Source of the DNA: Defluviitaleaceae bacterium | Lineage (GTDB): Bacteria > Bacillota > Clostridia > Lachnospirales > WQUN01 | Assembly (NCBI GenBank): GCA_009781765.1 | Contig: WQVC01000005.1 | Location: 1-53,005, forward strand | Direction of reading: 5' to 3' | Length of the DNA: 53,005 bases | In this document: piece after piece, positions 4,252 through 41,514 of the stretch | Layout of the letters: each line of letters starts with the position of its first letter | Position numbering within the stretch: position 1 is the stretch's first letter | The notes under the pieces: generated by a model | Database searches by the model: none | What the model was told of the DNA's origin: nothing | Seen by the model: only the letters and a program-made list of their open reading frames with translations | Translations under genes and position numbers: made by a program

Positions 4252-5069
4252 TGCGTTGCCTCCTTTGCAAAAACTACGAAAACCACACGTTCGCAGTCGG
4301 GTGCGGGTGCATTTTTGCTGTAGCCGTCAAAAATTTCCGCCGACGCGAACCCCGCTTCCGTAAGAAGTTGTTGCACGATTTCCGCCGAAAACGCTCGTTG
4401 GCGGTGGATTTCTTCGAACGGCTCGTTGCGGGGTTCGTTGCCGCTGTCGTCGTTGAAAAAAATTACGCGGCATTCGTTAATTTTCGTTTTCGGGTTGTAA
4501 TTGTTTTGCCATTCGTATTTTTCGCCGCCGCCGTCGCCTTCGAAAATTTTATTGCCCATGTTTTCGAATTTTGCTTCCGTGTTCATGTCGAAAATGAAAA
4601 TTCCGCCGGGGTTCAAAAACAGGCGCACACGCTTGAACGTCGCAAGCAAATCTGCCTCGCTTAAAAGATAATTCAGCCCGTCGCAAACGCAAACCGCTGC
4701 GTCGATTGTTCCGTAGAGATTTAATTTGCGCATGTCTTGTGCGAGAAATAAAATTTGCAGGTTTTCGGCTTTGCGCGACGCCTCGGCGAGCATATCCCCC
4801 GACGCATCTGCGCCGATTAAATCGTAGCCGGCCTTCGCAAGCCGAATTGCGATATTTCCGGTTCCGCACGCAAGGTCGAGCACCAAAAAATTTGCCTTGC
4901 AGATGCGTAATTTTTTTTCGTTTTCGTGCAAACATGCAGGTTGCGCAACATCGGGTTTTGATTTCGCAAATGCGCGCTGCAAAAGCAGTTCGTCTATGTA
5001 TTCCGCCCATGAATCATAGGGCGTTTCCGCCATAAGTGCGTCATACACTCGCGCAAAATTTTTATACAT
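4248..5069 (-). CDS. Class I SAM-dependent methyltransferase
   Basis: 273 residues. The SAM-binding motif I is VLDLACGTGNIAIRLAKAG (about residues 73-91), followed by an acidic residue at the end of strand 2 (IGADAS) and the motif DAAVCVCDGLNYLLSE, so the fold is a Rossmann-type methyltransferase. The opening MYKNFARVYDALMAETPYDSWAEYI is typical of the clostridial family annotated simply as class I SAM-dependent methyltransferase. The substrate is unknown. Its stop codon overlaps the ppk start (ATGA), so the two are probably co-translated. A family B repeat remnant begins about 20 bases upstream of the start. Confidence 0.85.
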   Translation of the reverse strand: MYKNFARVYDALMAETPYDSWAEYIDELLLQRAFAKSKPDVAQPACLHENEKKLRICKANFLVLDLACGTGNIAIRLAKAGYDLIGADASGDMLAEASRKAENLQILFLAQDMRKLNLYGTIDAAVCVCDGLNYLLSEADLLATFKRVRLFLNPGGIFIFDMNTEAKFENMGNKIFEGDGGGEKYEWQNNYNPKTKINECRVIFFNDDSGNEPRNEPFEEIHRQRAFSAEIVQQLLTEAGFASAEIFDGYSKNAPAPDCERVVFVVFAKEATQ

Positions 5070-5086
5070 CGGAATCTTCCTTTCGG

Positions 5087-5146
5087 GAGAGTAAAATTAT
5101 CCGTTCGCATACGCTCGTTCGCAGCTCACGGCATTTTTCAACTCTC
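5087..5146. repeat. Family B repeat, internally deleted copy
   Basis: A 60-bp version with both outer ends (GAGAGT...ACTCTC) and the arms CCGTTCGCATACGCTCGTTC and GCAGCTCACGGCATTTTTCAAC, but without the central hairpin seen in full copies (8136-8236, 15895-16003). On the minus strand it overlaps the end of the small gene at 5138-5299 and gives its last residues and stop (GAG AGT TGA). Confidence 0.75.
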
Positions 5147-5299
5147 TTTTTGAGTGCGTTTTCTTCGCGCCAAAATACCGCCGATTCGTCCGGTTTCTTT
5201 GGCGGTGAGGCTCTTCCAGCCGGTCGCGCTTATTTTGTCCGTAAGACCCAACTCTTCTGCAATTTCCGTTTTCATTATATCATGTTCCGATTTTTTCAT
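5138..5299 (-). CDS. Small spore-protein-like protein (53 aa)
   Basis: A 53-residue frame starts at ATG with a strong ribosome-binding site (GGAGGTGC) upstream. The protein has the features EIAEELGLTDKI, GWKSLTAKETGRIGGILARR and a basic tail. This layout (an E-[IV]-A protease-like site, GW, and a GRIGG near the C terminus) resembles short clostridial proteins of the alpha/beta small acid-soluble spore protein class, which coat spore DNA. Its codons have clear coding character, and its stop codon lies in the family B remnant at 5087-5146. The family assignment is by recognition only; a small unrelated basic protein is the alternative. Confidence 0.6.
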   Translation of the reverse strand: MKKSEHDIMKTEIAEELGLTDKISATGWKSLTAKETGRIGGILARRKRTQKES

Positions 5300-5334
5300 A
5301 AAAAATGCACCTCCGAATATTTCTGTTTTTTATA

Positions 5335-5438
5335 GAGAGTGTTGAAAAATAGCTTGAGGGTACGGGCAAAGAACGCCCGCACCCTTCAGGTCATTTTCCG
5401 AGATGCGGCATATGCGAAAGCGTAATTTTTCAACACTC
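5335..5438. repeat. Family B-prime palindromic repeat
   Basis: Ends GAGAGTGTTGAAAAAT and ATTTTTCAACACTC are inverted copies. The interior differs from family B proper: it has TCATTTTCCGAGATGCGGCATATGCGAAAGC (here split by position) and an inner hairpin GGGTACGGGC...GCCCGCACCC. The outer third matches the element at 27206-27314 in the opposite orientation. It occupies the gap between the spore-protein-like gene and the next plus-strand gene. Confidence 0.8.
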
Positions 5439-5548
5439 GCTTTAACTCTCTCTTTCCATTGTTTCAAAGTTGCGGAAATTTTATACATGCGATATTATTA
5501 GCGGTGCGGATTCGCATTTGAAGTCTGTTTTCGCAAAGGAGTGGTGAA

Positions 5549-6364
5549 TTGAATACAGAAAAAAATCCTAAAATTCGCGTCGCCACATCCGACCCGAGCT
5601 TGAAAGACAAAATAAAAATCAACCTTACGGGCGATATTGATACAATTCATTGGTCGATACGGTTTAATATTCCCCTCGACGAAACCTCGGTAAACGACAA
5701 AACGATGGAAGTAACCGACACCGACGGCTATGTTATGCGCACCGAAATCACCTACGTACACGGAAGCAACAGCATAACCATTTCGCCGCTCGATTCCTAC
5801 GAAGAACAGCGATTTTATCTGCTGAAAATATCAAAAAAAGTGCGGTCGGCAAAAGGGCAGCATTTGAAAAGCGAAATAAATATCTTGTTCAAGCTGTATC
5901 AGGGCAAAATGGCCGCAACAAAAACCGTCAAGCAAGATATTCCCGTGCCGAAATCGCGCCCGCGCCCGCGAAATTACGACGACCTGCAACCCCTGCGCGT
6001 TCATAACGATTTGGATAATTACGTCGATAATTTGGAACATCGTTCGCGCCTGTCGCTCGACGCAAACGGAATAAACCCCGTTGTGGGAATTTTGGGCTTC
6101 TTGGGAGTAGTCGGCGGAATTATTGCGGGAAGCCTGCCGGTAATGGTGGTTTCGGCGATTCTTTGTGTGCTTGGTGCGCTGCACATTATTTTGCAGTGGC
6201 AAAATAAAAATTTTCGTGCTAAAATGCATTACAACAAAGGAGTTAAGCATTTTAACAAGATGCAATATCAACTCGCAAAAGCCGCATTTCAGCAATCTTT
6301 GAGCGTAAACCCGGCATACGAAAACGCAAAATACGGCTTGGAAAGAGTTAAGGTATACAAGTAA
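5549..6364 (+). CDS. Ig-like/TPR membrane protein
   Basis: 271 residues, starting at a TTG seven bases after AAAGGAG. Residues about 25-115 look like a bacterial Ig-like domain of the SbsA type (FNIPLDETSVNDKTMEV, then a strand-rich region ending in RFYLLKISKKVRSAKG). A basic, proline-rich linker follows. A hydrophobic hairpin with two membrane segments lies at about 178-218 (VVGILGFLGVVGGIIAG, VMVVSAILCVLGALHIIL). The C-terminal 45 residues match a TPR unit (HYNKGVKHFNKMQYQLAKAAFQQSLSVNPAYENAKYGL). Both soluble parts may face the same side of the membrane. A protein-protein scaffold role is inferred; the exact function is unknown. Confidence 0.65.
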   Translation: MNTEKNPKIRVATSDPSLKDKIKINLTGDIDTIHWSIRFNIPLDETSVNDKTMEVTDTDGYVMRTEITYVHGSNSITISPLDSYEEQRFYLLKISKKVRSAKGQHLKSEINILFKLYQGKMAATKTVKQDIPVPKSRPRPRNYDDLQPLRVHNDLDNYVDNLEHRSRLSLDANGINPVVGILGFLGVVGGIIAGSLPVMVVSAILCVLGALHIILQWQNKNFRAKMHYNKGVKHFNKMQYQLAKAAFQQSLSVNPAYENAKYGLERVKVYK

Positions 6365-6407
6365 CGCGAATCAAGATGTAAGCAATAACCACTCAGGAGG
6401 GGTATTT

Positions 6408-7313
6408 ATGGATTTATTAACACGTTCAGACTTTGACGGGTTGGCGTGCGCGGTTCTTTTGCGCGAAATCGGGCTTATCGGCAAATGGCGTTTCGTCCAT
6501 CCCAAAGATTTGCAAGACGGTCACGTGCGCGTTACGGCAAACGACATTTTGGCAAACGTGCCGTACGTTGCCGGTTGCGGCATGTGGTTCGATCACCACA
6601 CAAGCGAATGGGAACGCATCGGCAAGCCGGAAGGGTTTGTCGGCTCGCTTCGCAAAATGGACAGCGCGGCTCGTGTAGTGTACGATTACTTCAAAGACCG
6701 CTACGACATCGAAAAATTCGAACCGATGCTTACCGAGGTTGATAAAGTTGACTCCGGCCGCCTTACCGCCGACGATATTTTAAACCCGAAGGGTTGGGTA
6801 CTGTTGGGCTTCCTTTCCGACCCGCGAACGGGCTTGGGGCGTTTCCGCGAGTTCCGCATCAGCAACTACAGCCTGATGGAGGAACTCATCGACCTTTGCC
6901 GCACAAAACCCATCGAAGAAATTTTGGCGCATCCCGACGTAAACGAGCGCGTTGAACTTTATTACGAACAAGCCGCCCTGTTCAAAGAGATGCTTAAAAA
7001 ACACACAACGGTTAAAGGCAACGTAATTATCACCGACCTTCGCGGTGCGGAAACAATAAACGCGGGCAATCGCTTCCTTATATACAGCCTCTTCCCCGAG
7101 CAAAACATGTCTATGTGGGTAGTTGACGGCAAAAACAAAGAAAACTGCTCTATCGCCTGCGGCTACAGCATTTTGAATCGTACATCCGTCGTTGACGTCG
7201 GCTCGGTGCTTTTGAGCTACGGCGGCGGCGGTCACAGGCAAGTGGGAACATGCCAAATACCTTACGCCGATGCCGACCGCGTAATCGCAGAACTCAGCGA
7301 GAAATTACAATAG
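6408..7313 (+). CDS. DHH-family phosphoesterase
   Basis: 301 residues, with a GGAGGGG ribosome-binding site before the ATG. The family motif order is present: an N-terminal SDFDGLACA, a WFDHHTSEW segment carrying the DHH signature (about residues 63-71), an acidic EVDKVDSGRL motif, and a C-terminal DHHA1-type GGGGHRQVGTC. These proteins are manganese-dependent phosphodiesterases or phosphatases acting on short RNAs, nucleotides or polyphosphate. This member is closer to the short exopolyphosphatase-like proteins than to RecJ. The nearby ppk1 makes a polyphosphate role tempting, but they are on opposite strands and nothing in the sequence shows a link. Confidence 0.85.
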   Translation: MDLLTRSDFDGLACAVLLREIGLIGKWRFVHPKDLQDGHVRVTANDILANVPYVAGCGMWFDHHTSEWERIGKPEGFVGSLRKMDSAARVVYDYFKDRYDIEKFEPMLTEVDKVDSGRLTADDILNPKGWVLLGFLSDPRTGLGRFREFRISNYSLMEELIDLCRTKPIEEILAHPDVNERVELYYEQAALFKEMLKKHTTVKGNVIITDLRGAETINAGNRFLIYSLFPEQNMSMWVVDGKNKENCSIACGYSILNRTSVVDVGSVLLSYGGGGHRQVGTCQIPYADADRVIAELSEKLQ

Positions 7314-7416
7314 GCAACTTCTTGCGTGATTCGGGAATTTTCGAGGGGTCAGCGCAAGAAGTCCGACGGAGCACTTTCAGCGAAGCCGAACACATTATTT
7401 GAAAAGGACTGATAAC

Positions 7417-7608
7417 ATGCATATCAAAACAATTTTCTCCGGAAATTTTGACAAAAAGCACATCAACTGCGGCGAATGCCAAACTTCGTGCCAATCTGCC
7501 TGCAAAACTTCCTGCACAATCGCGAACCAAAATTGCGAGCATCCGGATTCCCTGCAAAACAAAAAATCCGCTCGCGTAAACAGGATTTTTCGCGAAAAAA
7601 CCGCGTAG
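7417..7608 (+). CDS. scfA: SCIFF (six-cysteine) ribosomal peptide precursor
   Basis: The core CGECQTSCQSACKTSCTIAN has the hallmark spacing of the SCIFF (six cysteines in forty-five residues) peptide, a substrate for thioether cross-linking by a radical SAM enzyme. A further cysteine follows (NQNC), giving the six. The ATG at 7417 is preferred over the in-frame TTG at 7399 because AAAAGG sits nine bases before it. The encoded 63-residue peptide is longer than the usual precursor: a basic tail of about 22 residues (HPDSLQNKKSARVNRIFREK) follows the cysteine region. The maturase is two genes downstream. Confidence 0.9.
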   Translation: MHIKTIFSGNFDKKHINCGECQTSCQSACKTSCTIANQNCEHPDSLQNKKSARVNRIFREKTA

Positions 7609-7611
7609 CTT

Positions 7612-8019
7612 ATGAAAAAGCGAATCGTACGATGCAAAATCTGCCAAGAAATGTACGAGTTTGAAAAAGGATTTCCTCCGCCGTGCTGCCCTAAGTGCAA
7701 GGTGGTTCGTGATGAGAGATTTCAAAAAGTTCGCGAACTTATAAAGCGGATGCCCGGCATTACCGCGCTTGAAGTTCATGTAATTACCGGCGTTCCTCTT
7801 GAGATGATTATGCAATTCGTGCGGGACGGCGACATCGAAGCAATCCCGATTGCGTCCGAGAAAGATATGACTCTCGACGAACGCATCGGCATGATGGTGA
7901 AAAAGGCGAAAGAGAAAAAAGCCATCCTATATGACGCGCTCGTCGAGGACGGCGGCACGATTGACGGCTTAAATGCCGAGGAAAAAGACGTACTTATTAA
8001 CTGGCTTTTCAAGGAGTAG
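7612..8019 (+). CDS. Zinc-ribbon/helix-turn-helix protein (YvyF-like)
   Basis: 135 residues, beginning three bases after the SCIFF stop. The N terminus has two CxxC knuckles (CKICQEMYEF and CCPKCK), consistent with a zinc ribbon. The middle (ITALEVHVITGVPLEMIMQFVRDGDIEAIPI) looks like a MerR-type helix-turn-helix as in the flagellar-region protein YvyF/TIGR03826. The C-terminal third is charged and helical. No ribosome-binding site is visible, so coupling to SCIFF translation is likely. It lies between the SCIFF peptide and its maturase. A regulatory role is inferred from the fold only. Confidence 0.6.
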   Translation: MKKRIVRCKICQEMYEFEKGFPPPCCPKCKVVRDERFQKVRELIKRMPGITALEVHVITGVPLEMIMQFVRDGDIEAIPIASEKDMTLDERIGMMVKKAKEKKAILYDALVEDGGTIDGLNAEEKDVLINWLFKE

Positions 8020-8021
8020 TT

Positions 8022-9410
8022 ATGATTCACTGCTTTGAAATCGGAGAGCGCAATTTAGTTCTTGATGTAAACAGCGGCGCGTTACACAGTGTTGACGACG
8101 CCGCTTTTTACGTTCTGAAAAATATGGCCGCCGTTGAGAGTGTTGAAAAATGCCGTGAGCTGCGACGAGTTCGCAGAAAACCGGCGGCCCGGTTTTCGAG
8201 AACGAGCGAATGCGAACGGACAATTTTTCAACACTCCGAAATTCCCGCCGACACCCCCGAATCTTTGCGCCGGGAAATTCGCGAGCTGATTGACGCCGGG
8301 CAGCTCTTCTCACGCGACCGCGCCGATGAAGCTCACGAACACATGCAAAATCGTAACCCGGTTGTGAAGGCACTTTGTTTGCATATCGCCCACGAATGCA
8401 ATTTGCGATGCAAATACTGCTTCGCCGGGCAGGGCAATTATTCCGAAAACGACCGCGGGCTGATGCCTTTCGAAGTCGGCAAAAACGCGATTGACTTTCT
8501 TATTGAAAATTCCGGCACGCGCCGCAACCTCGAAGTCGATTTTTTCGGCGGCGAGCCGATGCTTAATTTTGACGTCGTGAAAAAAATCGTGGCATACGGG
8601 CGCGAACGCGAGGGCGAAAAAAACTTTCGCTTCACTCTCACAACAAACGCCGCGCTGCTCAGCGACGAAAATATTTCGTACATAAACGAAACTTTCGATA
8701 ACGTCGTGCTGTCCCTCGACGGGCGCAAGCACGTTAATGACAATATGCGCCCGTTTGCCGGCGGCGGCGGCAGTTACGATGAAATTCTGCCCCGGATAAA
8801 GGCGTTAGCGGATGCGCGGCAGGGCGCAAATTATTATGTTCGCGGTACGTACACGCGGCACAATCTCGACTTTGCCGCCGACGTACTGCATCTTGCCGAC
8901 GCCGGCTTCAAAAACATTTCCGTCGAACCGGTTGTTGCTCCGGCGGACACGGATTACGCTATTCGCGAGGAAGATTTGCCCGCACTTTTCGCCGAATATG
9001 AAAAACTCGCGCTCGCACTGCTTGCCCGCGAGCGCGAAGGGCGCGGCATCTTTTTTTTCCATTTCGAAACCGACCTCAGCGGCGGCCCGTGCATTGCCAA
9101 GCGCGTAACCGGTTGCGGCGCGGGCGCGGAATATTTGGCGGTAACGCCGTCGGGCAGGCTGTATCCCTGCCATCAGTTTGTTGGCGACGAGAAATTCATG
9201 CTCGACGCCCCCTCCCCCGCTTTCTCCGCAAATCACGTTTTTACAAAACCCGAATGCGCTGCCTGTTGGGCGAAATTTCACTGCGGCGGCGGCTGTTTTG
9301 CCACGGCATATCACATGAACGGCGATATTTCAAAGCCGGATAAAATTTCGTGCGAACTTATGAAAAAGCGCGTTGAGTGCGCGTTGTTTATGTTTGCTGA
9401 ACGTCAATGA
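8022..9410 (+). CDS. scfB: SCIFF radical SAM maturase with in-frame repeat insertion
   Basis: 462 residues; AAGGAG precedes the ATG and overlaps the previous stop region. The radical SAM cluster motif CNLRCKYC lies at about residues 127-134, followed by FFGGEP. A SPASM/twitch region near the C terminus provides extra cysteines (CHQF, CAACWAKFHCGGGC, SC). Its family installs thioether bridges between SCIFF cysteines and threonine alpha carbons. The N-terminal recognition region (LDVNSGALHSVDDAAFYVL) is typical. Residues about 39-72 (ESVEKCRELRRV...TIFQHS) are encoded by a family B repeat and have no place in the family; removal would restore an ordinary protein of about 428 residues. Confidence 0.93.
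   Translation: MIHCFEIGERNLVLDVNSGALHSVDDAAFYVLKNMAAVESVEKCRELRRVRRKPAARFSRTSECERTIFQHSEIPADTPESLRREIRELIDAGQLFSRDRADEAHEHMQNRNPVVKALCLHIAHECNLRCKYCFAGQGNYSENDRGLMPFEVGKNAIDFLIENSGTRRNLEVDFFGGEPMLNFDVVKKIVAYGREREGEKNFRFTLTTNAALLSDENISYINETFDNVVLSLDGRKHVNDNMRPFAGGGGSYDEILPRIKALADARQGANYYVRGTYTRHNLDFAADVLHLADAGFKNISVEPVVAPADTDYAIREEDLPALFAEYEKLALALLAREREGRGIFFFHFETDLSGGPCIAKRVTGCGAGAEYLAVTPSGRLYPCHQFVGDEKFMLDAPSPAFSANHVFTKPECAACWAKFHCGGGCFATAYHMNGDISKPDKISCELMKKRVECALFMFAERQ
8136..8236. repeat. Family B repeat inside scfB coding sequence
   Basis: GAGAGTGTTGAAAAATGCCG at the left and CAATTTTTCAACACTC at the right are inverted ends. The interior matches the intergenic copy at 15895-16003 in opposite orientation, including GTGAGCTGCGACGAGTTCGCAGAAAACCGG (described in parts) and ACGAGCG-ATGCGAACGGAC. 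It is 101 bp; with one flanking base the insertion is 102 bp, so the reading frame is preserved and no stop is created. Confidence 0.85.
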
Positions 9411-9584
9411 AGTTTAGGGGCTACGCAAAACCAAATTGCTGATGTTACGGTTGTTGGTTGGATGGGTTCGGAAGGTCACAGAAATGCAATAATGGGAGAG
9501 GGTACTCCGGCTATGGGGGTAGGCTCGGCAGTCGACCCGGCAAGAGGAACTGTTTTTGTTTATTGGTTTGGTGATGGAAGATAG
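9411..9584 (+). pseudogene. CAP-domain (SCP/PR-1) protein remnant
   Basis: Directly after the scfB stop, and in the same frame, about 57 codons read GATQNQIADVTVVGWMGSEGHR, NAIMGEGTPAMGVGSAVD and FVYWFGDGR before TAG (given here in pieces). GW(M)xSxGHRxxI, then GVG and YWxxxFG, is the C-terminal half of CAP-superfamily domains. There is no start codon or N-terminal half, so this is a 3' fragment of a secreted CAP protein whose upstream part was lost, perhaps when scfB reached this position. Confidence 0.65.
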
Positions 9585-9600
9585 TAGTTTCCTGTACACT

Positions 9601-9630
9601 AAAAAATCGCGCATTCGCGCGATTTTTTTA
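9601..9630. terminator. Bidirectional rho-independent terminator
   Basis: AAAAAATCGCGC/GCGCGATTTTTT stem with an ATTC-type loop and T-runs on both strands. It separates plus-strand scfB/CAP remnant from the convergent minus-strand CBS-ACT gene and liv operon. Confidence 0.85.
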
Positions 9631-9651
9631 TTTTGACTCACTATTTACAAA

Positions 9652-10302
9652 TTACTCAAACTTCCTCACATCCGAAACCTTAATCCCCGCCGCTGCAAGC
9701 GCGGCAACAATTCCGTCGATATCAAGAGTGTCAACCCGCAAAACGATTTCCTGCTCGCCGCCGCCCCTGTCATAATTGCCGATGTGTCCGATATTTACGC
9801 CGGCATCCGCAACAATGCGCGAAATTTTCGCAACAATGCCGACGTCGTTGGCAACGTCAAATGCAAGCCGCGTCCCCTTGTGGTTCACGCCCATCAAACC
9901 GTACAACGCCTTGAAAATATCGGTTTGCGTAATAATTCCGACAAGGGTGCTGTCCGCGCGAATAACCGGCAACGAGCCGACATCGTGAGTGTAAAGCGCG
10001 AGCGCGGCTTCTTCCACAAGACTATCCGGCCCGATTGTGAAAACTTCCTCAAATTTCAACATAACGTCACGAACCTTCGTTCGCGTCATCAGATAATTTA
10101 TTTCATAAACGCTCAACGCCGTCGCCTTTGAAGGTCGCACTTCCGCAAGCAAATTTTCCGAAAGCAAGCCTACAAGCCGCTCTCCGCGCACAACCGGCAA
10201 CACCTTGTGCCGCCTGTCGTGCAAAATTTGAAACGCCTTGTTAAGCGACGCTTCTTCCGTTACGGTTGCGACATCCGTCGTCATCATTTCCGAAATCCGC
10301 AT
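9652..10302 (-). CDS. CBS-ACT domain protein (AcuB-like)
   Basis: 216 residues when started at the ATG of MRISEMM, which has AAAGGTGG at the right distance; an upstream in-frame start has no such site. Two CBS motifs occupy about residues 1-60 (MTTDVATVTEEASLNKAFQIL...LPVV) and 75-135 (VRDVMLKFEEVFTIGPDSLVEEAAL...LPVI). A C-terminal ACT-like domain (about 145-216) has FDVANDVGIVAKISRIVADAGVNIGHI. CBS pairs bind adenosyl ligands and ACT domains bind amino acids. Its place downstream of livF suggests sensing of branched-chain amino acids, but that is inference. Alternative name: acetoin-utilisation AcuB family. Confidence 0.85.
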   Translation of the reverse strand: MRISEMMTTDVATVTEEASLNKAFQILHDRRHKVLPVVRGERLVGLLSENLLAEVRPSKATALSVYEINYLMTRTKVRDVMLKFEEVFTIGPDSLVEEAALALYTHDVGSLPVIRADSTLVGIITQTDIFKALYGLMGVNHKGTRLAFDVANDVGIVAKISRIVADAGVNIGHIGNYDRGGGEQEIVLRVDTLDIDGIVAALAAAGIKVSDVRKFE

Positions 10303-10329
10303 GTAATTTCCACCTTTCTTCACAACGCG

Positions 10330-10424
10330 CACCACGAAAACGTGCAAAGCACGTTTTCACGAGTTTTTGCCCCGCTTTTTCCAAAAAGCGGGCGGGGGTT
10401 CGGGGCGGAGTCCCCGAGATTTCA
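10330..10424. repeat. Family D hairpin cluster, copy 1
   Basis: Consecutive hairpins: GAAAACGTGC/GCACGTTTTC, CCCGCTTTTTCC/AAAAAGCGGG and GGGGCGGAGTCCCC. The same modules recur at 17998-18118, 19190-19345, 21029-21225, 28785-28900, 35617-35790 and 46430-46558. It lies between livF and the CBS-ACT gene and could act as an intraoperon attenuating terminator. Confidence 0.7.
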
Positions 10425-10425
10425 C

Positions 10426-11121
10426 CTACGCCCCTAAATAAGCCTTCCTTACATCATCGTTCGAAATCAATTCGTCGGCACGACCCGAAAGGGCAACAAG
10501 CCCGGTTTCAAGTACATAAGCACGGTCGGAAATCGACAACGCCATGTTCGCGTTCTGCTCAACGAGAAGAATCGTCATGCCGGCGTTGTTGCACTCCTTA
10601 ATTATGCGAAAAATTTCCTTTACCAGAATCGGCGAAAGCCCCATGGACGGCTCGTCCATCAGAAGCATTTTCGGCTTGGACATCAGCGCGCGCCCGATTG
10701 CAAGCATCTGCTGTTCGCCGCCGGAAAGAGTGCCGGCAAGCTGCTTGCGCCGCTCGTAAAGACGGGGAAAAAGCGCGAAAATTTCCTGATAATCGGCGGA
10801 TTTAGCCTTGTGCAAATACGCGCCCATGGCGAGATTTTCGCGCACGGTCATTTTTGCAAATACGCGCCGCCCCTCCGGCACCTGAACAAGCCCCTGCGCA
10901 ATAATTTTGTGCGCGGGCGTTGCCGAAATTTCGTTTGTCAAGAATTCGACGCTGCCGTCGGCGGCCTTTAAAAGCCCGGAAATTGCGTGCATAATCGTGG
11001 TTTTGCCGGCCCCGTTCGCGCCGATAAGCGACACGATTTCGCCCTCGTTTACATGAAAAGAAACGCCGCGAACGGCGGTAATTGCCCCGTATGATACGTG
11101 CAAATTCGAAACTTTTAACAT
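10426..11121 (-). CDS. livF: Branched-chain amino-acid ABC transporter ATPase LivF
   Basis: 231 residues, normal for LivF. Walker A GANGAGKT, Q-loop LVQVPEGRRVFAKMTVRENL, signature LSGGEQQML and Walker B MLLMDEPSMGL are all present, followed by the H-loop region ILLVEQN. The PEGRRVF motif marks LivF rather than LivG. With LivG it powers import of leucine, isoleucine and valine or related solutes through LivH/LivM. It overlaps the end of the HEPN gene by 7 bases, so it is still part of the liv transcript despite the intervening MNT/HEPN pair. Confidence 0.95.
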   Translation of the reverse strand: MLKVSNLHVSYGAITAVRGVSFHVNEGEIVSLIGANGAGKTTIMHAISGLLKAADGSVEFLTNEISATPAHKIIAQGLVQVPEGRRVFAKMTVRENLAMGAYLHKAKSADYQEIFALFPRLYERRKQLAGTLSGGEQQMLAIGRALMSKPKMLLMDEPSMGLSPILVKEIFRIIKECNNAGMTILLVEQNANMALSISDRAYVLETGLVALSGRADELISNDDVRKAYLGA

Positions 11122-11513
11122 TTCGTCGCGCCTTTCTTAAAAAAAGCGTAAATTTTTTCCGCCAATTCCAAAGCCTCGGCGGATTGCGATTCTGTAAGTT
11201 CGAAATATGAGTTGCCCGGATAATTCGTATCGTAATAATAATCCGACAGTTTAGACAAAATGCCGGCGTCCCTGTGCGACAATTCGCGCCAACCAAGCTC
11301 GACGCAACGGTCGTACAAACGCCGCGGCTTATGCAACGACATCAGCTTGTAATCGCTCGAATCGCCGTGCTTTTCGATATATGATTTCAAACATTTTTCA
11401 ACGGCTTGCTCGCAAAATCGCCCGGCGGCACTGTAGTCCGAAAAATCGTGCATGATTCGGGCGCGGGTCAAATCTTTTTCAGCGATATACAAAAAACTGC
11501 CTATCTCTGCCAC
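11115..11513 (-). CDS. HEPN-domain protein
   Basis: 132 residues starting at GTG, overlapping the preceding MNT gene by 13 bases and the livF start by 7. The helical pattern FLYIAEKDLTRARIMHDF, AAGRFCEQAVEKCLKSYIE and LSDYYYDTNYPGN matches PF05168-type HEPN domains, where the last segment is usually YYIPTRYPD. The arginine of that segment is an asparagine here. An RxxxxH sequence occurs in helix 1 (RARIMH) but not at the usual catalytic position, so RNase activity is uncertain. Partnered with an MNT nucleotidyltransferase, it forms a two-gene module of the HEPN/MNT toxin-antitoxin type. Confidence 0.85.
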   Translation of the reverse strand: MAEIGSFLYIAEKDLTRARIMHDFSDYSAAGRFCEQAVEKCLKSYIEKHGDSSDYKLMSLHKPRRLYDRCVELGWRELSHRDAGILSKLSDYYYDTNYPGNSYFELTESQSAEALELAEKIYAFFKKGATKC

Positions 11514-11797
11514 AGCAACACGCCCTCTTTTTTTATTGACGACGACACGTGCAACGGATTTTCATCAATTTTGAAAACATCCGCTTCGACATAGGTGTAC
11601 TCAACATCAGCGCGATGGCGGTCGGCAACTTCGTTAAGCGCGGCGCGATTTATTCGGGCGGCGTCGGTGTGAATCACCGCGATATCAACGTCGCTGAACG
11701 CGGTGGCCGCCCCTCGCGCGTGACTGCCGAACAAGTACAACTCGCGAATACATTCATCCCTGCCGGCGGCGGAAATAATGTCATCGAACAGCGTCAC
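11501..11797 (-). CDS. MNT-type minimal nucleotidyltransferase
   Basis: 98 residues from a GTG start, two bases after the livG stop. The motif GSHARGAATAFSDVDIAV is the GS-x9-DxD signature of minimal nucleotidyltransferases, with a later acidic strand (ADVEYTYVE) that may give the third metal ligand. In characterised HEPN/MNT pairs this protein adenylylates and silences the HEPN RNase. The pair sits inside the liv operon with overlaps or tiny gaps on both sides, implying co-transcription with transporter genes rather than an autonomous promoter. Confidence 0.85.
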   Translation of the reverse strand: MTLFDDIISAAGRDECIRELYLFGSHARGAATAFSDVDIAVIHTDAARINRAALNEVADRHRADVEYTYVEADVFKIDENPLHVSSSIKKEGVLLWQR

Positions 11798-11799
11798 GC

Positions 11800-12558
11800 C
11801 TATTCCCCCAAATACGCCTCGACAACACGCGGATTATTTTTAATTTCGTCGGGAGTGCCGGCGGCAATTATCATGCCGTAATCCAGCACAACCATGCGTT
11901 GGCAAATGCCCATAACGAGCTTCATATCGTGTTCGATTAAGAGAATCGCGATATTAAATTTTTCGCGAATCAGCCGGATTGTATCCATAAGAAGCTGTGT
12001 TTCACTGGGATTCATGCCGGCGGCGGGTTCGTCCAAGAGGAGAAGTTTCGGGTTTGTTGCAAGAGCGCGAGCAATTTCAAGCTGACGTTGCTTGCCGTAG
12101 GGCAAATTCGCGGCGTTTGCGTCGGCGAGGTCCGCCATGTCGAAAACGGAAAGCAGTTCCAACGCAGAATTGTGAATTTCCGTTTCCTCGCGCCAATATG
12201 ACGGCAAGCGCAAAATGCCGCTCAACAAATTATATTTCATGCGGGCGTGAAAAGCGGTTTTCACGTTCTCAACAACGCTCAACCCCTTGAACAGCCGAAT
12301 ATTCTGAAACGTCCGCGCAATTCCCAAATTATTTATATGATACGATTTTTTTCCTGCGATGCTTTTGCCGTCGAAAATAACGTCGCCTTCCGTGGGCGCG
12401 AAAACGCCCGTCAGCAGGTTAAAGCACGTGGTTTTTCCCGCGCCGTTCGGGCCGATAAGACCGACAAGCTCGCTCGGTTCAATTTCGATATTAAATTCCG
12501 ACAGGGCGCGCAAACCGCCGAAATCCACGCCCATGCCTTTCGCTTCCAAAAGTGCCAC
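11800..12558 (-). CDS. livG: Branched-chain amino-acid ABC transporter ATPase LivG
   Basis: 252 residues. Walker A GPNGAGKTT, the LivG-specific IARTFQNIRLFKGLSVVENV, signature region LPYGKQRQLEIARAL (YGxQR in place of SGGQ, as is normal for LivG) and Walker B LLLLDEPAAGMNPSE. The C-terminal NNPRVVEAYLGE is the LivG tail. It starts two bases after livM stops. It works with LivF as the heterodimeric motor of the importer. Confidence 0.95.
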   Translation of the reverse strand: MALLEAKGMGVDFGGLRALSEFNIEIEPSELVGLIGPNGAGKTTCFNLLTGVFAPTEGDVIFDGKSIAGKKSYHINNLGIARTFQNIRLFKGLSVVENVKTAFHARMKYNLLSGILRLPSYWREETEIHNSALELLSVFDMADLADANAANLPYGKQRQLEIARALATNPKLLLLDEPAAGMNPSETQLLMDTIRLIREKFNIAILLIEHDMKLVMGICQRMVVLDYGMIIAAGTPDEIKNNPRVVEAYLGE

Positions 12559-12560
12559 GA

Positions 12561-13571
12561 TTACGCCCTCCCTCCGCGAAATTTTTTGAGAATGTTCTGC
12601 ACAGAAAATTCATACGAACCCATAAGCCCTTTGGGGCGAAAAATCATCATCGCAATAAGAAGCACGGCGTAAACAAGCATTCGCCACAGTTGAAATTCGC
12701 GCAAAAACTCCGGCAGAAGCGTAAGCACAATCGCGGCGATAATCGCGCCGGTAAACGACCCCATTCCGCCCAAAACAACAATAACAAGCAACTCAATTGA
12801 AAAAACGAAATCGAAGTCAAGCGGCTCAATGAAAAACACTTGATGCGCAAAAAGTCCGCCCGCCACGCCGGCAAAAAATGCAGAAATCGTAAAGCCCAAA
12901 ATTTTATAATACACGGTCGAAATGCCGGAAGCCTCAGCGGCAATTTCATCCTCGCGAATGGCAATCATTGCGCGTCCGTGCCGCGAGCGCACGAGGCAAA
13001 CAAGCACCGCAACCGTTATAACCATAACAAAAAATGCCGCCTCGAACGTGGTCAGGCGCGAAACCGTCATGCCCTGCGCACCGCCGGTAGCATTCAAAAG
13101 GCTCGCCAACGGGTACAGGAACGACCCCTCCGAAACGTTGAGAATATTGTTCAAATTAAGCATCAGCGACTGCACGATAAACACAAACGCGAGGGTAATA
13201 ATCGCGATATAATCGCCGCGCAAACGCAGTGCCGGCACACCGATAATTATTCCGGAAACCGCCGCTGCCAAGCCGCCGACAACCAATGCCGCAAGAAGCC
13301 CCGGTGTTCCGGTTGCGCCGATTGCGTTCGCAAAAATCGCCGCAGCATACGCCCCGACGGACATAAACGCCGCGTGCCCGAGCACCAATTGCCCCAAAAA
13401 GCCCGCCGACAAGTTCAGGCTCACGGCCAAAATAATATTTATGCACACCAAAATAATCAGATGCTCGTGGAACGGATTAAAAACGCGGAGCTGCAACAGC
13501 ACAGAAATAACCGCAAAAACCACCAACAAAAGCCCTGCATTTATAAAGTACATTTTAAAGTTCGGCTTCAT
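12561..13571 (-). CDS. livM: Branched-chain amino-acid ABC permease LivM
   Basis: 336 residues with about ten hydrophobic segments. Family signatures are NLSAGFLGQLVLGHAAFMSVGAYAAA near residue 55 (described in parts), LRLRGDYIAIITLAF and the cytoplasmic loop SRHGRAMIAIREDEIAAEASGIS, which contacts the ATPase. The tail RPKGLMGSYEF is typical of LivM. The start is one base from the livH stop, so the membrane subunits are tightly coupled. Confidence 0.95.
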   Translation of the reverse strand: MKPNFKMYFINAGLLLVVFAVISVLLQLRVFNPFHEHLIILVCINIILAVSLNLSAGFLGQLVLGHAAFMSVGAYAAAIFANAIGATGTPGLLAALVVGGLAAAVSGIIIGVPALRLRGDYIAIITLAFVFIVQSLMLNLNNILNVSEGSFLYPLASLLNATGGAQGMTVSRLTTFEAAFFVMVITVAVLVCLVRSRHGRAMIAIREDEIAAEASGISTVYYKILGFTISAFFAGVAGGLFAHQVFFIEPLDFDFVFSIELLVIVVLGGMGSFTGAIIAAIVLTLLPEFLREFQLWRMLVYAVLLIAMMIFRPKGLMGSYEFSVQNILKKFRGGRA

Positions 13572-13572
13572 T

Positions 13573-14454
13573 TTACACCTTCTCCCGCACGGTTTTGCCC
13601 AAAAGTCCGGACGGTTTTATAAGAAGCACAAGAATCAAAATACCGAAAACAACCGCGTCTGACCAAAGCGTTGAAACATACGCGCGGGTGAGGCTTTCAA
13701 TTACGCCGAGCAACAGCCCGCCAAGCATCGCGCCGGGAATAATTCCGATGCCGCCCAACACCGCCGCAACAAACGCCGTCAAACCCATTTGCAACCCCAT
13801 AAACGGCTCAACAAGCGGAAAAGTTGACGCATAAAGCGCACTGCCGACAGCCGCAAGCGCACTTCCGATTGCAAATGTTACGGCAATCGTATTGTTCACA
13901 TTTACGCCCATAAGGCTTGCCGCGCCGGAGTCTTCCGACACTGCCCGCATAGCCTTGCCCATTTTTGTTTTCTTAACAAACAGATGCAACAGCAACATCA
14001 TAAGTGCCGACACGGAAATCGTGATAATTGCCAACCAACTCACCGTAACGTCGCCGAAAAGCGTCACCGAACCTTCCACGCCCAACGACGGAAACGGTCG
14101 CGGGTCCGGCCGAAACGCAACCATGAACGCATTTTGCAAAAACAGGCTCACACCGATTGCCGTAATCAGCGCGCTCAGGCGCGTCGCATTTCGAAGGGGC
14201 TTGTACGCAACTTTTTCCATAAGCACGCCCAAAATCGCGCAGCCCACCATCGCCAGAAAAACCGCAAGCAAAAACGGCACCCCTGCATAGCGTGCCAAAA
14301 AATAAATAATATACGAACCCACCATAATGACATCGCCGTGGGCAAAATTGATGAGCTTAACAATGCCGTAAACCATTGTGTAACCGAGCGCGACGAGGGC
14401 ATATATGCTGCCCGCCGACAAGCCGTTTATCAATTGCGCAATGAATAATTCCAT
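13573..14454 (-). CDS. livH: Branched-chain amino-acid ABC permease LivH
   Basis: 293 residues from MELFIAQLINGLSAGSIYAL, the usual LivH N terminus; an upstream in-frame ATG would add 12 residues encoded by repeat sequence (MCLQVLPPRTSI). LVALGYTMVYGIVKLINFAHGDV and KKTKMGKAMRAVSEDSGAASLMGVNVN (in parts) are family motifs, and the tail IKPSGLLGK fits. No good ribosome-binding site precedes the ATG: the sequence there is the right arm of the repeat at 14468-14551, which may have displaced it and lowered translation. Confidence 0.93.
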   Translation of the reverse strand: MELFIAQLINGLSAGSIYALVALGYTMVYGIVKLINFAHGDVIMVGSYIIYFLARYAGVPFLLAVFLAMVGCAILGVLMEKVAYKPLRNATRLSALITAIGVSLFLQNAFMVAFRPDPRPFPSLGVEGSVTLFGDVTVSWLAIITISVSALMMLLLHLFVKKTKMGKAMRAVSEDSGAASLMGVNVNNTIAVTFAIGSALAAVGSALYASTFPLVEPFMGLQMGLTAFVAAVLGGIGIIPGAMLGGLLLGVIESLTRAYVSTLWSDAVVFGILILVLLIKPSGLLGKTVREKV

Positions 14455-14467
14455 AATAGAGGTTCGC

Positions 14468-14551
14468 GGGGGGAGAACCTGCAAACACATACACCATGCT
14501 TCCGCATTCTCTCGAAGCCGGATACTGCTTGCATTGCCAAGTTCTCCCCCC
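14468..14551. repeat. Composite repeat: family C core in an outer inverted repeat
   Basis: Outer arms GGGGGGAGAACCT and AAGTTCTCCCCCC flank a core containing GCATTCTCTCGAAGCCGGA, the family C right end. The same nesting occurs at 35798-35900 with arms GGGGAGAACCTTT/AAAGGTTCTCCCC. It lies between livJ and livH, immediately upstream of the livH start. Confidence 0.75.
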
Positions 14552-14703
14552 GCATCCCCCTCTCCAAAAAATTTATCCGAAAACCGCGCCCGGCACGGTT
14601 TTCAAGTAGGGGTACAAGGTGACGTTCCCAAGTTGCACGTGCGAGCAGTTCGTTGCAAATGCGCGAACGACCGACTCGCGAGGGTGCGGGGCGAAGCCTC
14701 CGC
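14552..14703. repeat. Hairpin-rich intergenic tract, family D-like
   Basis: Contains ATCCCCCTCTCCAAAAAATTT, an arm pair AAAACCGCGCCCGGCACGGTTTT, GCACGTGC, and GCGAACGACCGACTCGC, ending in GGGGCGAAGCCTCC. This is the same kind of modular hairpin string seen at other family D sites, though more diverged. It sits just after the livJ stop and may reduce transcription into livHMGF, as commonly seen after solute-binding-protein genes. Confidence 0.55.
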
Positions 14704-14706
14704 GTT

Positions 14707-15861
14707 TTATTCGGGAACGAAGCGATGGTACAAACGTGCGACGGTTTCGTCGTCGTCGTTGGTTTCGATTGCGATAATCATAAGCTCCTTAATCGGGTCG
14801 CCGCGGTCGTTGAAGGTAATCGGACCGGTTACGCCGTTAAAGCTGATGTTTTGCATCGCACGAATAATTTCTTCGTTGTCGGTTGAGCCGGCTTCTTCGA
14901 TTGCTTGAGCAAGAATGCCCGCAGCGTCAAAGCCGAGCGCAGCAAATGAATTCGGCGGAACATCGAAACGCTCAGTGTAGCTTTCTACGAAAGCGCGCAC
15001 AACGGGGCTGGGATAGTCCACCGCAAAGTGTGCGCTGAAAAACGCGCCGTCGAGAATCGAGGGGTCGTCCACTACGTTGAATACGCCTTCCCATCCGTCT
15101 GCGCCGAGCAAAGTGGATGTTACGCCGAGTTCACGCACTTGCGCCGCCATGAGCGCTATTACCGGGAAATAATCCGGCAGGAAAAGTACGTCGGCATCGG
15201 TTGCGCGAATTGTTGTAAGTTGGGTGCGGAAGTCAACCGCGCCCGAAATGTACGCTTCGGATGCGACAATTTCGCCGCCCAGAGCTTCGAAATATCTGCG
15301 GAAATTTACCGCCAAACCTTCGGAATATGCCATGCCGGAGTCAAACAAAATTGCGGCGGTTCTTGCTCCGAGATTGTTGTAGGCGAAATTCGCCATATTG
15401 TATGCCTGAAACGCATCAAGGAAACATGCGCGGAAGATGAAATCGCCGAAACTTGTAACATCTTCGTGGGTGGCGGTGGGAGCAATCATGGGGAGACGGT
15501 TTTGAACAGCCGCCGCACCGACCGCATTTGCGGGACCGCTTGTAACCGGCCCGACGATTGCAATTACGTTATCCTGATGCACGAGCCGTTGAAACGACGC
15601 GATAGATACTGCCGGAGTATGCTCGTCGTCGATAAGGAAGTAGTTCACGGGCAAGCCCAAAAGTCCGCCGCGCTCATTGATTTCCTCAAACGCAAGCCTC
15701 GACCCGTTGCTGGACGCAACGCCGAAAACAGACGCTCCGCCCGTAAGCGGCGCGATAATTCCGATACGAATTTCTTCTTCATTTGCACTACCGGGAGTAC
15801 ATGAAAAAATTACAAGCGACACTAACGACAACATACCGAAAAGAACGATTTTTCTTAACAT
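14707..15861 (-). CDS. livJ: Branched-chain amino-acid ABC substrate-binding lipoprotein
   Basis: 384 residues. The N-terminal signal ends in a lipobox VIFSC (acceptor cysteine about residue 25). The mature protein begins with IRIGIIAPLTGGASVFG, followed by AFEEINERGGLLGLPV, IVGPVTSGPANAVGAA and a second lobe, which is the periplasmic-binding-protein type I fold of LivJ/LivK (PF13458). It captures a branched-chain amino acid or related solute outside the membrane and delivers it to LivHM. AGGAGG lies seven bases before the ATG. It is the first gene of the operon, with a family B repeat directly upstream. Confidence 0.93.
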   Translation of the reverse strand: MLRKIVLFGMLSLVSLVIFSCTPGSANEEEIRIGIIAPLTGGASVFGVASSNGSRLAFEEINERGGLLGLPVNYFLIDDEHTPAVSIASFQRLVHQDNVIAIVGPVTSGPANAVGAAAVQNRLPMIAPTATHEDVTSFGDFIFRACFLDAFQAYNMANFAYNNLGARTAAILFDSGMAYSEGLAVNFRRYFEALGGEIVASEAYISGAVDFRTQLTTIRATDADVLFLPDYFPVIALMAAQVRELGVTSTLLGADGWEGVFNVVDDPSILDGAFFSAHFAVDYPSPVVRAFVESYTERFDVPPNSFAALGFDAAGILAQAIEEAGSTDNEEIIRAMQNISFNGVTGPITFNDRGDPIKELMIIAIETNDDDETVARLYHRFVPE

Positions 15862-15894
15862 TTAAAACCTCCTGATAAAAATTTTTTTGTAAGT

Positions 15895-16003
15895 GAGAGT
15901 GCTGAAAAATTGTCCGTTCGCATACGCTCGTTCTCGAAAACCGGCCTGAACCCGCCGGTTTTCTGCGAACTCGTCGCAGCTCACGGCATTTTTCAACACT
16001 CTC
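15895..16003. repeat. Family B palindromic repeat, full-length intergenic copy
   Basis: 109 bp with inverted ends GAGAGTGCTGAAAAATTG and CATTTTTCAACACTCTC. The centre folds as AAAACCGGC/GCCGGTTTT. It is the closest relative of the copy inside scfB. It fills the space between livJ and the restriction endonuclease gene and lies within the likely livJ promoter region. Confidence 0.88.
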
Positions 16004-16008
16004 CCAGT

Positions 16009-16674
16009 TTAATTTATACGGGGAAAAATTGCAAGTTTTGCGGAAACAACACGATACCATTCGTCGGGAGGAATCGCGCCTTCCAAAGGAAAAAGTGTTC
16101 GCGTATCGCGAATTGCCGCAATGAATTTTTCCGCACTGCCGAACGCTTCGCCGGGCAATTTGTGAAACGGAAACGGCCGAATCGCATAGGGTTGCCCCTG
16201 CTTAACCTGCAATCCGACGGGATACTTTCGCGAAACCGAAGTTATGTCCCACAAATTTTTCAAAAAAATATCCTTTATCTCAAAACCATGCTTTGTGGGC
16301 GAATATCCGAAAATCAAATATTTTGCATTCAACTTGGCGGGATTCGAAAAAATTTCGCGATAAAACCCGTTAAAATTGGCGATGTCAAACGCGGGTGATT
16401 GGTTATAATTCCAACACTTCACTTCCATATCATATCGCTTGCCGTCAATTACGGCTGTGAAATCGGGAAAGGCTTGGCTTTTCTTGTTGCTTTCAAGCGT
16501 AAGCCCTTCATCTTCAAGCCATTGCGGTATCCACTCCTGCACACAATTTCCGATTATATCGTTCGACTTACTTATTTTCGGAATGTTGCCAATGGTAATC
16601 ACAACCGTGCCTCTCTCGCCCTTGATTTTTTCGAGGGCTTTTTTATACAACCCTTCCAACGGTTGAAGCGACAT
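16009..16674 (-). CDS. Type II restriction endonuclease, possibly NgoBV/NlaIV family
   Basis: 221 residues from the ATG preceded by AAAGGGGAG; an upstream in-frame ATG has no such site. PD at residues 70-71 and EVK at 84-86 (FPDFTAVIDGKRYDMEVKCW) form a PD-(D/E)xK nuclease core. The rest (SNDIIGNCVQEWIPQWLE, FNGFYREIFSNPAKLNAKYL) recalls the NgoBV/NlaIV family cutting GGNNCC, a tentative match. It overlaps the cytosine methyltransferase gene by 32 bases, so the pair is a coupled restriction-modification operon with the methyltransferase first, which protects the host before the nuclease is made. Confidence 0.8.
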   Translation of the reverse strand: MSLQPLEGLYKKALEKIKGERGTVVITIGNIPKISKSNDIIGNCVQEWIPQWLEDEGLTLESNKKSQAFPDFTAVIDGKRYDMEVKCWNYNQSPAFDIANFNGFYREIFSNPAKLNAKYLIFGYSPTKHGFEIKDIFLKNLWDITSVSRKYPVGLQVKQGQPYAIRPFPFHKLPGEAFGSAEKFIAAIRDTRTLFPLEGAIPPDEWYRVVSAKLAIFPRIN

Positions 16675-17935
16675 TTTGAAGCTCCCCTTTCGAAGTTGCA
16701 AACGTTTGCAAAAGACGCAGCGAAATTTCGGTGATTACGGGAATACACACGGTATTTCCCAATAAATCGAAGGCTTCGCGCGGCGTTAAAAAATCCAAAT
16801 CGTAATCTTCCGGAAATCCGAATAAACGCAACCCCTCGCGCACAGTAAGCGACCGCAAGCCGTCGCGCACGCACACGCCGAGCCGAAGCGCATCCGTTGC
16901 AACAAGCGTAGGCGTAATTCCGCCGGGGTCAAGAATTTTATTGTATTCGAAAGACAATTTGCCGCTCACGATGTTATAACCCTTTTCGGTTGTCGTATCG
17001 TAAACGCGGCGACCGCCTTCTTTTTTCTTGGGATGTTCAAGCACCAAGTATCCTTTTTGCACCAAGTCGTCAAGCATTTGTCGCAAATTTTTCGAATCGT
17101 AAAATGTACGAATCATGTCTGCCGTGAGCGGCATTCCGTCCATCCAGTCGATGCCGTAAATTTCTGCCCATTTTTTGTTACGCCGCTGCTTTAAAAGCAT
17201 CCCCAGAAGCTCCTTTTGCGCCTCCGTTACCTTTCCTTTCAGCGCGAAGTCCCAACTGTGAATATTGCTTTTTCCGCCGCGCTTGTCCTTAATTTGCTTG
17301 CCGATAAGCTCGTCGGGCGTGTAATGCGCCAAAAGTTTTCGCGTAAAATCAGACTTTACCGGCGGAACATCCGTTTCAATAATATCCGCCAACACAGCAG
17401 TTTTTTCCGTAAAATTTCGCAAAACAACATGTTTTTGCCTGTTACCCGTTATGTAAATCCTTTTTCGGGATTGCGCCAATCCGAAATCCTTGCCGTCCAA
17501 AATTTCGTACCCGACGAAATAACCCAAACCCTTCAAAATATCAATCATGCGCGCCAATGTCGCGCCGTTTTTATGCGAAACAAGCCCTTCGACGTTCTCC
17601 AAAATAAAAGCCGTCGGATTTTTTGCTTTTAAAATCCGCACAATATCAAAAAAAAGCGTGCCTCTTGTATCCTCGAAACCCATTCGTTTACCGGCAGCAG
17701 AAAACGCCTGACACGGAAATCCCGCCAAAAGCACGTCAAAGTCAGGAATATGCCGTTCGTTTACGGCGGTGATGTCGCCATGGACTTTATGACCGTCAAA
17801 ATTATTTGAATACGCCCTAACCGCGTGACTCTTTATTTCCGACGCAAAAACGCAGACACCGGACATGCTTGAAAGTGCCGCTTCAAAGCCCAACCGCATC
17901 CCTCCGAGCCCGCAAAATAAATCAACAAACCTCAT
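16643..17935 (-). CDS. DNA (cytosine-5) methyltransferase
   Basis: 430 residues from MRFVDLFCG, with GGAGGTG upstream; an earlier in-frame ATG would add six residues. Motif I DLFCGLGGMRLGFE, motif IV GFPCQAFSAAGKRMGFEDTRG (in part; catalytic Cys75), motif VI ENVEGL, motif VIII QSRKRIYITG and the C-terminal LTVREGLRLFGFPEDY and LLGNTVCIPV motifs are present. Between motifs VIII and IX is an extended target-recognition region that includes a winged-helix-like stretch (LTADMIRTFYDSKNLRQMLDDLV...YLVLEH). It transfers a methyl group to carbon 5 of cytosine and is the cognate partner of the nuclease at 16009-16674. Confidence 0.93.
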   Translation of the reverse strand: MRFVDLFCGLGGMRLGFEAALSSMSGVCVFASEIKSHAVRAYSNNFDGHKVHGDITAVNERHIPDFDVLLAGFPCQAFSAAGKRMGFEDTRGTLFFDIVRILKAKNPTAFILENVEGLVSHKNGATLARMIDILKGLGYFVGYEILDGKDFGLAQSRKRIYITGNRQKHVVLRNFTEKTAVLADIIETDVPPVKSDFTRKLLAHYTPDELIGKQIKDKRGGKSNIHSWDFALKGKVTEAQKELLGMLLKQRRNKKWAEIYGIDWMDGMPLTADMIRTFYDSKNLRQMLDDLVQKGYLVLEHPKKKEGGRRVYDTTTEKGYNIVSGKLSFEYNKILDPGGITPTLVATDALRLGVCVRDGLRSLTVREGLRLFGFPEDYDLDFLTPREAFDLLGNTVCIPVITEISLRLLQTFATSKGELQNVASTVGRVV

Positions 17936-27205: not shown

Positions 27206-27314
27206 GAGAGTGTTGAAAAATTACGCTTTCGCATATGCCGCATCTCGGAAAATGACCTAAAGCCGTCATTTTCCTGCGATGCCGGCACAGCTAAAGCTAT
27301 TTTTCAACACTCTC
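27206..27314. repeat. Family B-prime palindromic repeat
   Basis: 109 bp with ends GAGAGTGTTGAAAAATTAC and TATTTTTCAACACTCTC. Inside are GCTTTCGCATATGCCGCATCTC and a stem AAAATGACCT/GTCATTTTCC. It has the same interior as 5335-5438. The 27024-27343 gap otherwise holds an AT-rich tract with no gene visible. Confidence 0.85.
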
Positions 27315-41131: not shown

Positions 41132-41503
41132 ATGGAGAAATTAACAACGGAACGATTAAAAATCGGTGCGCTTATTTTTGCAACCGCAACGGCGGCTGTT
41201 TGCGCGGGGTTTGTTCTCGGTTATTTTGCCTTCGGAAGAGCTGCGACAAATACGCTTGTTGAGGCGCAAATTGCCGTTCCGCTAAATTATGAGGAGCCGC
41301 CCGAACCGGAAGAACCGGAGCATAAATTTGTTGTAACGTCGCGCGATGACGCAATTATTGTTTACTCTGCGGGCGAAGAAGCGGACATCTTTGATGTAGC
41401 GGTCAACGCTCTGCCCGAGCCGGACAGAGAGCGTCTTTTGCAAGGAATTTTCGCGAATACCGAAGAAGAACTGGCGCGAATTTTGGAGGATTACGGCAGT
41501 TAG
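41132..41503 (+). CDS. BofC-like membrane protein
   Basis: 123 residues with GAAAGGAGTG before the ATG. One N-terminal membrane segment (about 10-33) is followed by a glutamate/proline linker and a C-terminal domain (about 65-123): KFVVTSRDDAIIVYSAGEE, LPEPDRERLLQGI and TEEELARILEDYGS. The last two motifs, LPxxDxxxLxxGI and EELxxxLEDYxS, match the C-terminal domain of the forespore protein BofC, which restrains the sporulation protease SpoIVB. The assignment by motif is moderate, and the context (other sporulation genes in the window) fits. Confidence 0.7.
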   Translation: MEKLTTERLKIGALIFATATAAVCAGFVLGYFAFGRAATNTLVEAQIAVPLNYEEPPEPEEPEHKFVVTSRDDAIIVYSAGEEADIFDVAVNALPEPDRERLLQGIFANTEEELARILEDYGS

Positions 41504-41514
41504 GGCGTGTTGAA

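Follow-up and report, generated by a model that had tools for sequence, protein, structure and literature searches.

Within the window (the whole 53,005-nucleotide stretch of DNA analysed), the SCIFF peptide maturase ScfB contains an extra segment that is best explained, with a probability of about 0.85, by a non-autonomous, transposon-like palindrome that inserted into a loop of the protein and is translated and tolerated as extra length. The scfB gene (8022–9410, forward strand) encodes a thioether-forming radical SAM/SPASM enzyme of 462 aa with an N-terminal RRE. Its identity as a SCIFF maturase is given by a score of 590 bits against the NCBIfam equivalog TIGR03974 (cut-off 425 bits) and by a nearby SCIFF precursor, the six-cysteine peptide encoded by scfA upstream (7423–7608, forward strand; TIGR03973, 60.5 bits, cut-off 50). 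CteB (PDB 5wgg, 5why) belongs to the same maturase family and aligns with ScfB over residues 1–460 (E = 1e-155 for 5wgg), but at the site of the 34-residue insert its own native segment is shorter. In named collections, which may leave out records close to the window, the five nearest ScfB loci come from MAGs, four of Defluviitaleaceae and one of Eubacterium, whose isolate names point to termite guts. Between scfA and scfB lies a 135-aa ORF (7612–8019) with weak, below cut-off similarity to TIGR03826 (YvyF), unlike the arrangement in the congener G009, where scfB directly follows the SCIFF region.

The insert is encoded by a palindromic, MITE-like element of 103 bp (8136–8238, forward strand), read in-frame as ESVEKCRELRRVRRKPAARFSRTSECERTIFQHS. 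The left terminal inverted repeat, GAGAGTGTTGAAAAAT, occupies 8136–8151 and its partner 8223–8238 on the reverse strand, with the last two bases altered to CG where the family has TC. The 14-bp arms at 8138–8151 and 8223–8236 are 100% complementary, and the 103-nt strand folds with −48.4 kcal/mol (z = −7.5), a stability equalled by none of 200 shuffles. As the first-pass annotation had proposed, an inverted repeat is therefore present within the N-terminal part of a single ORF of 462 aa (8022–9410). The length of 101 bp (8136–8236) given there required extension, since the family ends in GA..TC and the unit thus reaches 8238. Likewise, the predicted addition of about 34 basic residues was right in number, but the residues are not all basic, with 10 K/R and 5 D/E giving a net basic segment. 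The proposal that 101 bp plus one adjoining base makes the insertion divisible by three was not upheld; the family duplicates 5 bp, and element and expected duplication together give 103 + 5 = 108 bp, or 36 codons.

Compared with the 109-bp family consensus, the scfB copy shows a 6-bp deletion at the apex and two internal substitutions in addition to the changed right end. The expected left target duplication is CCGTT (8131–8135), while the right flank (8239–8243) reads AAATT, so that only two of five positions agree and no 5-bp duplication is readable at this site. Because of these poorly matching flanks and the altered right end, the scfB copy is considered older or altered. Among the copies found, the closest is at 40719–40819 of contig C14 of the host genome, with 97% identity. 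The host genome is a draft of 2,943,766 bases in 154 contigs, and repeats are known to break assemblies; nevertheless, a repeat misjoined into scfB is a most improbable source of the segment, as this copy is identical to no other found, differing by a 6-bp deletion and an end change of its own, and the sequence on its two sides belongs to a single gene that can be aligned with G009 across both flanks.

RRE domains consist of three strands followed by three helices, according to the available part of a published description (PMC12710340), which places the insert at the expected position of the middle helix. The AlphaFold model of ScfB, generated from a 6-sequence alignment (mean pLDDT 57.7, about 40 within the insert), shows three strands, a helix at residues 26–35, a poorly predicted stretch at 37–72 and a helix at 80–91. 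Superposition on CteB gave a Z score of 29.1 and an rmsd of 4.0 over 379 residues, comparing mostly the radical SAM part. Together, this low-confidence model and the CteB alignment position the insert inside the RRE, after the first of these helices and before the second, consistent with the earlier placement near the peptide-recognition region.

The same loop was compared by eye among congeners, leaving out the fragmentary G006. The distance from the KNM at the end of the first helix to the next conserved EI is 49 residues in the window protein, 16 in G009 and G004, 17 in G005 and 18 in G007. The nearest of these, G009, whose ScfB is 82% identical, lacks the element and represents the empty state of the site, in support of the mobile insertion suggested by the first-pass annotation; its scfB is spread over two contigs overlapping by 92 identical bases. 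That annotation had also named an equivalent segment in homologues without the repeat as evidence against insertion. No such segment occurs in G004, G005, G007 and G009, while G001, G002, G003 and G008 do have longer loops at the same place, of unrelated sequence. The loop of G002 contains an unrelated 104-bp palindrome and a second hairpin. A query spanning this palindrome and hairpin gave 16 match rows in G002, corresponding to 11 places besides ScfB, one place in G009 and none in the host genome. G002 has a further copy of the 104-bp palindrome within a 735-aa ORF, placed in-frame in its polyprenyl-synthetase part. The G001 loop contains a 59-bp repeat, 83% identical to part of an insert that this protein has in its SPASM region; the repeat recurs at the mfd locus of that genome. 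The tracing of loops to repeats covers the window, G002 and G001, and not the long loops of G008 (L003) and G003 (L005). Given that the repeats in the window, G002 and G001 are unrelated to one another, at least three repeat families have entered the ScfB loop independently. Judged from these sequence comparisons, the RRE loop of ScfB is a tolerant site that has been repeatedly hit by repeats.

The G002 locus is identical, over the stretch compared, to that of L106 (WRGX01000120.1), a Defluviitaleaceae MAG. The single ScfB of L106 (3001–4554) appears to contain several in-frame repeat segments: the 104-bp palindrome and hairpin in the RRE loop, an ‘HSLEAG’ repeat within the core and a SPASM insert. 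A relative of the GCCGGGGACACAT..ACATTCCCTCGAAGCC repeat lies in-frame near residue 266 of this protein; in the window, that repeat forms arrays at 32588–33097 and 42156–42350, inside ORFs of 807 aa (30977–33397) and 844 aa (41395–43926) respectively. The window also holds three copies of a 105-bp repeat (756–860, 2104–2208 and 52894–52998; 90–98% identical), and no ORF of at least 150 aa runs through the first two.

To the exclusion of the loop, the core of ScfB (residue 77 on) evolves with a dN/dS of 0.061 against G009 and 0.063 against L106, at a dS of 1.8–1.9 that is near saturation. Lineage-specific replacements number 12 in the window protein, 14 in G009 and 12 in L106, and are not datable relative to the insertion. 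The CxxxCxxC motif and the conserved cysteines of the SPASM region are intact and the six-cysteine precursor is present. With this precursor upstream, a dN/dS of about 0.06 and no excess of lineage-specific changes, ScfB with its insert appears functional from its sequence, with purifying selection acting on the remainder. Insertions often mark decaying genes, and one stretch in the SPASM part of ScfB is shorter here than in most congeners; G009, however, has the same shortening, and this together with the low dN/dS, the unremarkable number of changes and the retained cysteines and precursor makes it very unlikely that the insertion was one step in the loss of the gene. Somewhat less improbable, although still unlikely, is that the basic loop alters binding of the SCIFF leader or another partner by the recognition domain and has been kept by selection. 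The insert does lie inside the RRE, is net basic and occupies a loop that is also extended in G001, G002, G003 and G008. Against such a function, the loop sequences of the sister species are mutually unrelated and absent from several congeners, the same sequence is present in unrelated proteins (Tmk, AzlC and an MFS transporter) and between genes, and there is no sign of a changed evolutionary rate. The insert is therefore most likely a neutral, tolerated passenger.

The occurrence of the element elsewhere in the host genome identifies it as a member of a family. When used as a query, it returned at least 45 match rows, some partial, with the best 40 of 142 candidates scored. A search for the end motif GAGTGTTGAAAAAT, allowing at most one mismatch, gave 85 forward and 83 reverse matches (168 in total), while a reversed-pattern control gave one forward and none in reverse. 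Starting from the places known from these searches, with 100 end-motif places listed, 69 stretches were examined (68 fetched around known places and the window), and contained 63 end-motif pairs, of which 51 with a length of 85–170 bp were kept and seven shorter and five longer were dropped. The 2.94-Mb genome thus has at least 51 paired copies, that in scfB included. Copies are bounded by the inverted ends GAGAGTGTTGAAAAAT and ATTTTTCAACACTCTC with GA..TC termini and contain no transposase gene. There are two main subfamilies of 109 bp, B (scfB-like) and A, and A also has longer variants. Within the window, a B copy lies between genes at 15895–16003 (reverse strand; 92% identity), confirming that the same element is also intergenic, on the opposite strand to the scfB copy; an A copy lies upstream of a gene at 27206–27314 (reverse strand), and a shorter A variant with no ORF running through it at 5335–5440 (forward strand).

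A target duplication, which the first-pass annotation had recommended be sought at the junction, is clear for the family even though it is not readable at scfB. With the ends taken as GA..TC, a 5-bp duplication was exact in 13 of the 51 copies and agreed at four of five positions in a further 11. On average 3.33 of the five flanking positions matched, compared to 1.45 for re-paired right flanks and a maximum of 1.94 over 2000 shuffles. Other duplication lengths, from 2 to 11, gave at most four exact cases each. Terminal inverted repeats, the lack of an internal transposase and a fixed 5-bp duplication are all features of MITEs. No autonomous element with the same ends was seen by eye among ORFs near the checked ends, and a genome-wide search for the transposase family PF01609 gave no matches. 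The strict end pattern occurred in one of 38 family genomes and, by similarity, the element was found in two of 61 genomes including its own. The second, G029, has one copy of 73% identity; the 0.7 kb read there contains no long ORF that crosses this copy. No match was found in the phages, plasmids or viral contigs searched.

In-frame copies were identified in seven genes: scfB, tmk, mfd, azlC, and those for an MFS transporter, a methyltransferase and a membrane protein with two copies. The insert splits the TIGR00041 match of thymidylate kinase (tmk; contig C72) and the TIGR00346 match of AzlC (C65) into two pieces each, and the Pfam domain of the methyltransferase (C120) is found in pieces on either side. 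The MFS transporter and mfd copies are at position 1414 of C23 and 4278 of C37, and those in the membrane protein (C31) are 159 and 75 bp long. For five of these genes (scfB, tmk, mfd, azlC and that of the C31 protein) nine congeners were compared. The element was absent from Tmk in all eight congeners with a match (one of the nine had none), from AzlC in both with a match (seven had none), from the C31 protein in all five with a match (four had none), and from Mfd in the seven of nine congeners that could be aligned, G007 and G009 giving no match over that part. The C31 protein has 332 aa, against ORFs of 235–254 aa in relatives. Thymidylate kinase is essential in most bacteria. Separately, about 33 residues of Tmk after the element (residues ~196–228; locus L034, 1533–2510) are also absent from all eight congeners with a match. 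Mfd of the host (L075) has a second extra segment at residues ~243–287 that matches parts of large ORFs in C14, C16 and C89 and, on this sequence match, is probably another translated repeat.

The B consensus is free of stops in three of the six frames and the A consensus in one. Among the genes, B copies use all three open frames, with scfB and the MFS transporter sharing one, AzlC using another, and Tmk and the methyltransferase the third; the A copies within mfd and the C31 gene are in the single stop-free frame of A, in agreement with a segment that is translated rather than removed. An open ORF was the criterion by which in-gene copies were recognised, so this frame usage and the finding that all are in-frame are partly circular. 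The sum of unit and duplication is 114 bp in 24 of the 51 copies and 141 bp in seven, and in 41 copies it is divisible by three. These counts give no independent proof of selection for such lengths, being dominated by the 24 units of 114 and seven of 141; only seven of the 13 distinct lengths are multiples of three. The hairpin is very stable, and its removal by self-splicing, or its skipping by ribosome bypass, might be entertained. Such a process would not require the open frames and multiple-of-three units that in-gene copies keep, no Rfam match reached the gathering threshold in 5000–17000, and it is considered extremely unlikely.

No gene split by a copy was seen among the flagged pairs of left and right ORFs, 8 of 12 of which were left unsettled by family models. 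In the other four, Pfam names both sides as different genes (response regulator/kinase; MFS/GAP1; MgsA/aquaporin-like; copper-amine-oxidase-like/methyltransferase), so that the copies are intergenic and not within broken genes. Where an ORF was open in the joined empty site alone, it was judged by eye to be a shadow ORF or to lack support. Several further copies were rejected as in-gene. In C68 (PilT-like), C2 (alanine dehydrogenase) and at 27206–27314 of the window, the copy precedes the recognised domain or start; at C7:25397, C14:40721, C16, C23:4907, C37:4768, both C75 copies and window 15791–16201, the ORFs are without family support; and in C13, a 377-aa ORF ending in the copy has no Pfam or NCBIfam match.

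Under the favoured reading of a translated insertion, the element, moved by a transposase presumably supplied in trans, would have landed in the recognition domain of ScfB, in its variable loop between the first and the last helix. Unit and 5-bp duplication together have a length divisible by three, and the palindrome has no stop codon in the frame of landing, so the gene would have been left unbroken. The element would then be translated, with no removal from the mRNA, giving the recognition domain a protruding loop of about 34 residues, and would survive as the loop tolerates extra length, with a probably near-neutral effect on the enzyme.

Comparable elements have been described in other lineages. 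In the portions of the reports available, RPEs are palindromes of 105–146 bp fused in-frame in Rickettsia genes, one of which, in guanylate kinase, leaves the enzyme active with a changed substrate affinity (PMC2229807), and a protein-coding palindrome is reported from Methanocaldococcus jannaschii (PMC2996958). The present family shares with RPE and WPE the form of palindromes of ~100–150 bp, with several families per genome, placed between genes and in-frame in unrelated conserved genes (PMC2229807, PMC3767692, PMC10969869, as available). The scfB copy is of this size and forms a stem-loop (103 nt, −48.4 kcal/mol, z = −7.5), and copies lie in-frame in seven unbroken genes, with relatives lacking the element in five. 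The likeness described here is one of architecture, and the kin of the present host are clostridial rather than Rickettsiales, the hosts of RPE and WPE in the strict sense; the nearest named ScfB loci are those of the Defluviitaleaceae and Eubacterium MAGs. Furthermore, RPE duplications are listed as ‘?’ in the available part of PMC2229807, whereas a duplication of 5 bp is measurable here, with GA..TC ends. Bacterial MITEs such as Correia/NEMIS, RUP and QMITE1 of Coxiella are similarly short, with terminal inverted repeats and target duplications and without a transposase. Most known bacterial MITEs, however, as far as the accessible text of PMC2229807 and PMC5896051 describes them, carry a TA terminus and are found in intergenic positions or at the ends of genes, unlike the present family with its GA ends and some copies inside unbroken enzymes.

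The present family thus behaves like the protein-coding palindromes of Rickettsia, Wolbachia and M. jannaschii, in a new lineage. None was found for Clostridia in literature whose full-text coverage lacks most subscription papers; within this literature, protein-coding palindromes belong to intracellular Rickettsiales and one archaeon, and the present cases come from a clostridial lineage and show clear marks of transposition. More tentatively, several unrelated palindrome families may be routinely translated in essential and metabolic enzymes across the genus, at least three of them having independently entered one ScfB loop, and the window's family may have been selected as harmless in genes, through a unit and duplication that make a multiple of three and a B consensus free of stops in three of six frames; we regard this wider reading as possible but doubtful. 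More than ScfB alone, it is the in-frame set, the element-free sister genes and the reuse of one loop by different repeat families that make the case interesting. As sister species lack the element, the uptake of mobile-DNA segments by proteins is traceable in before and after pairs, which include thymidylate kinase and a RiPP enzyme of assayable activity.
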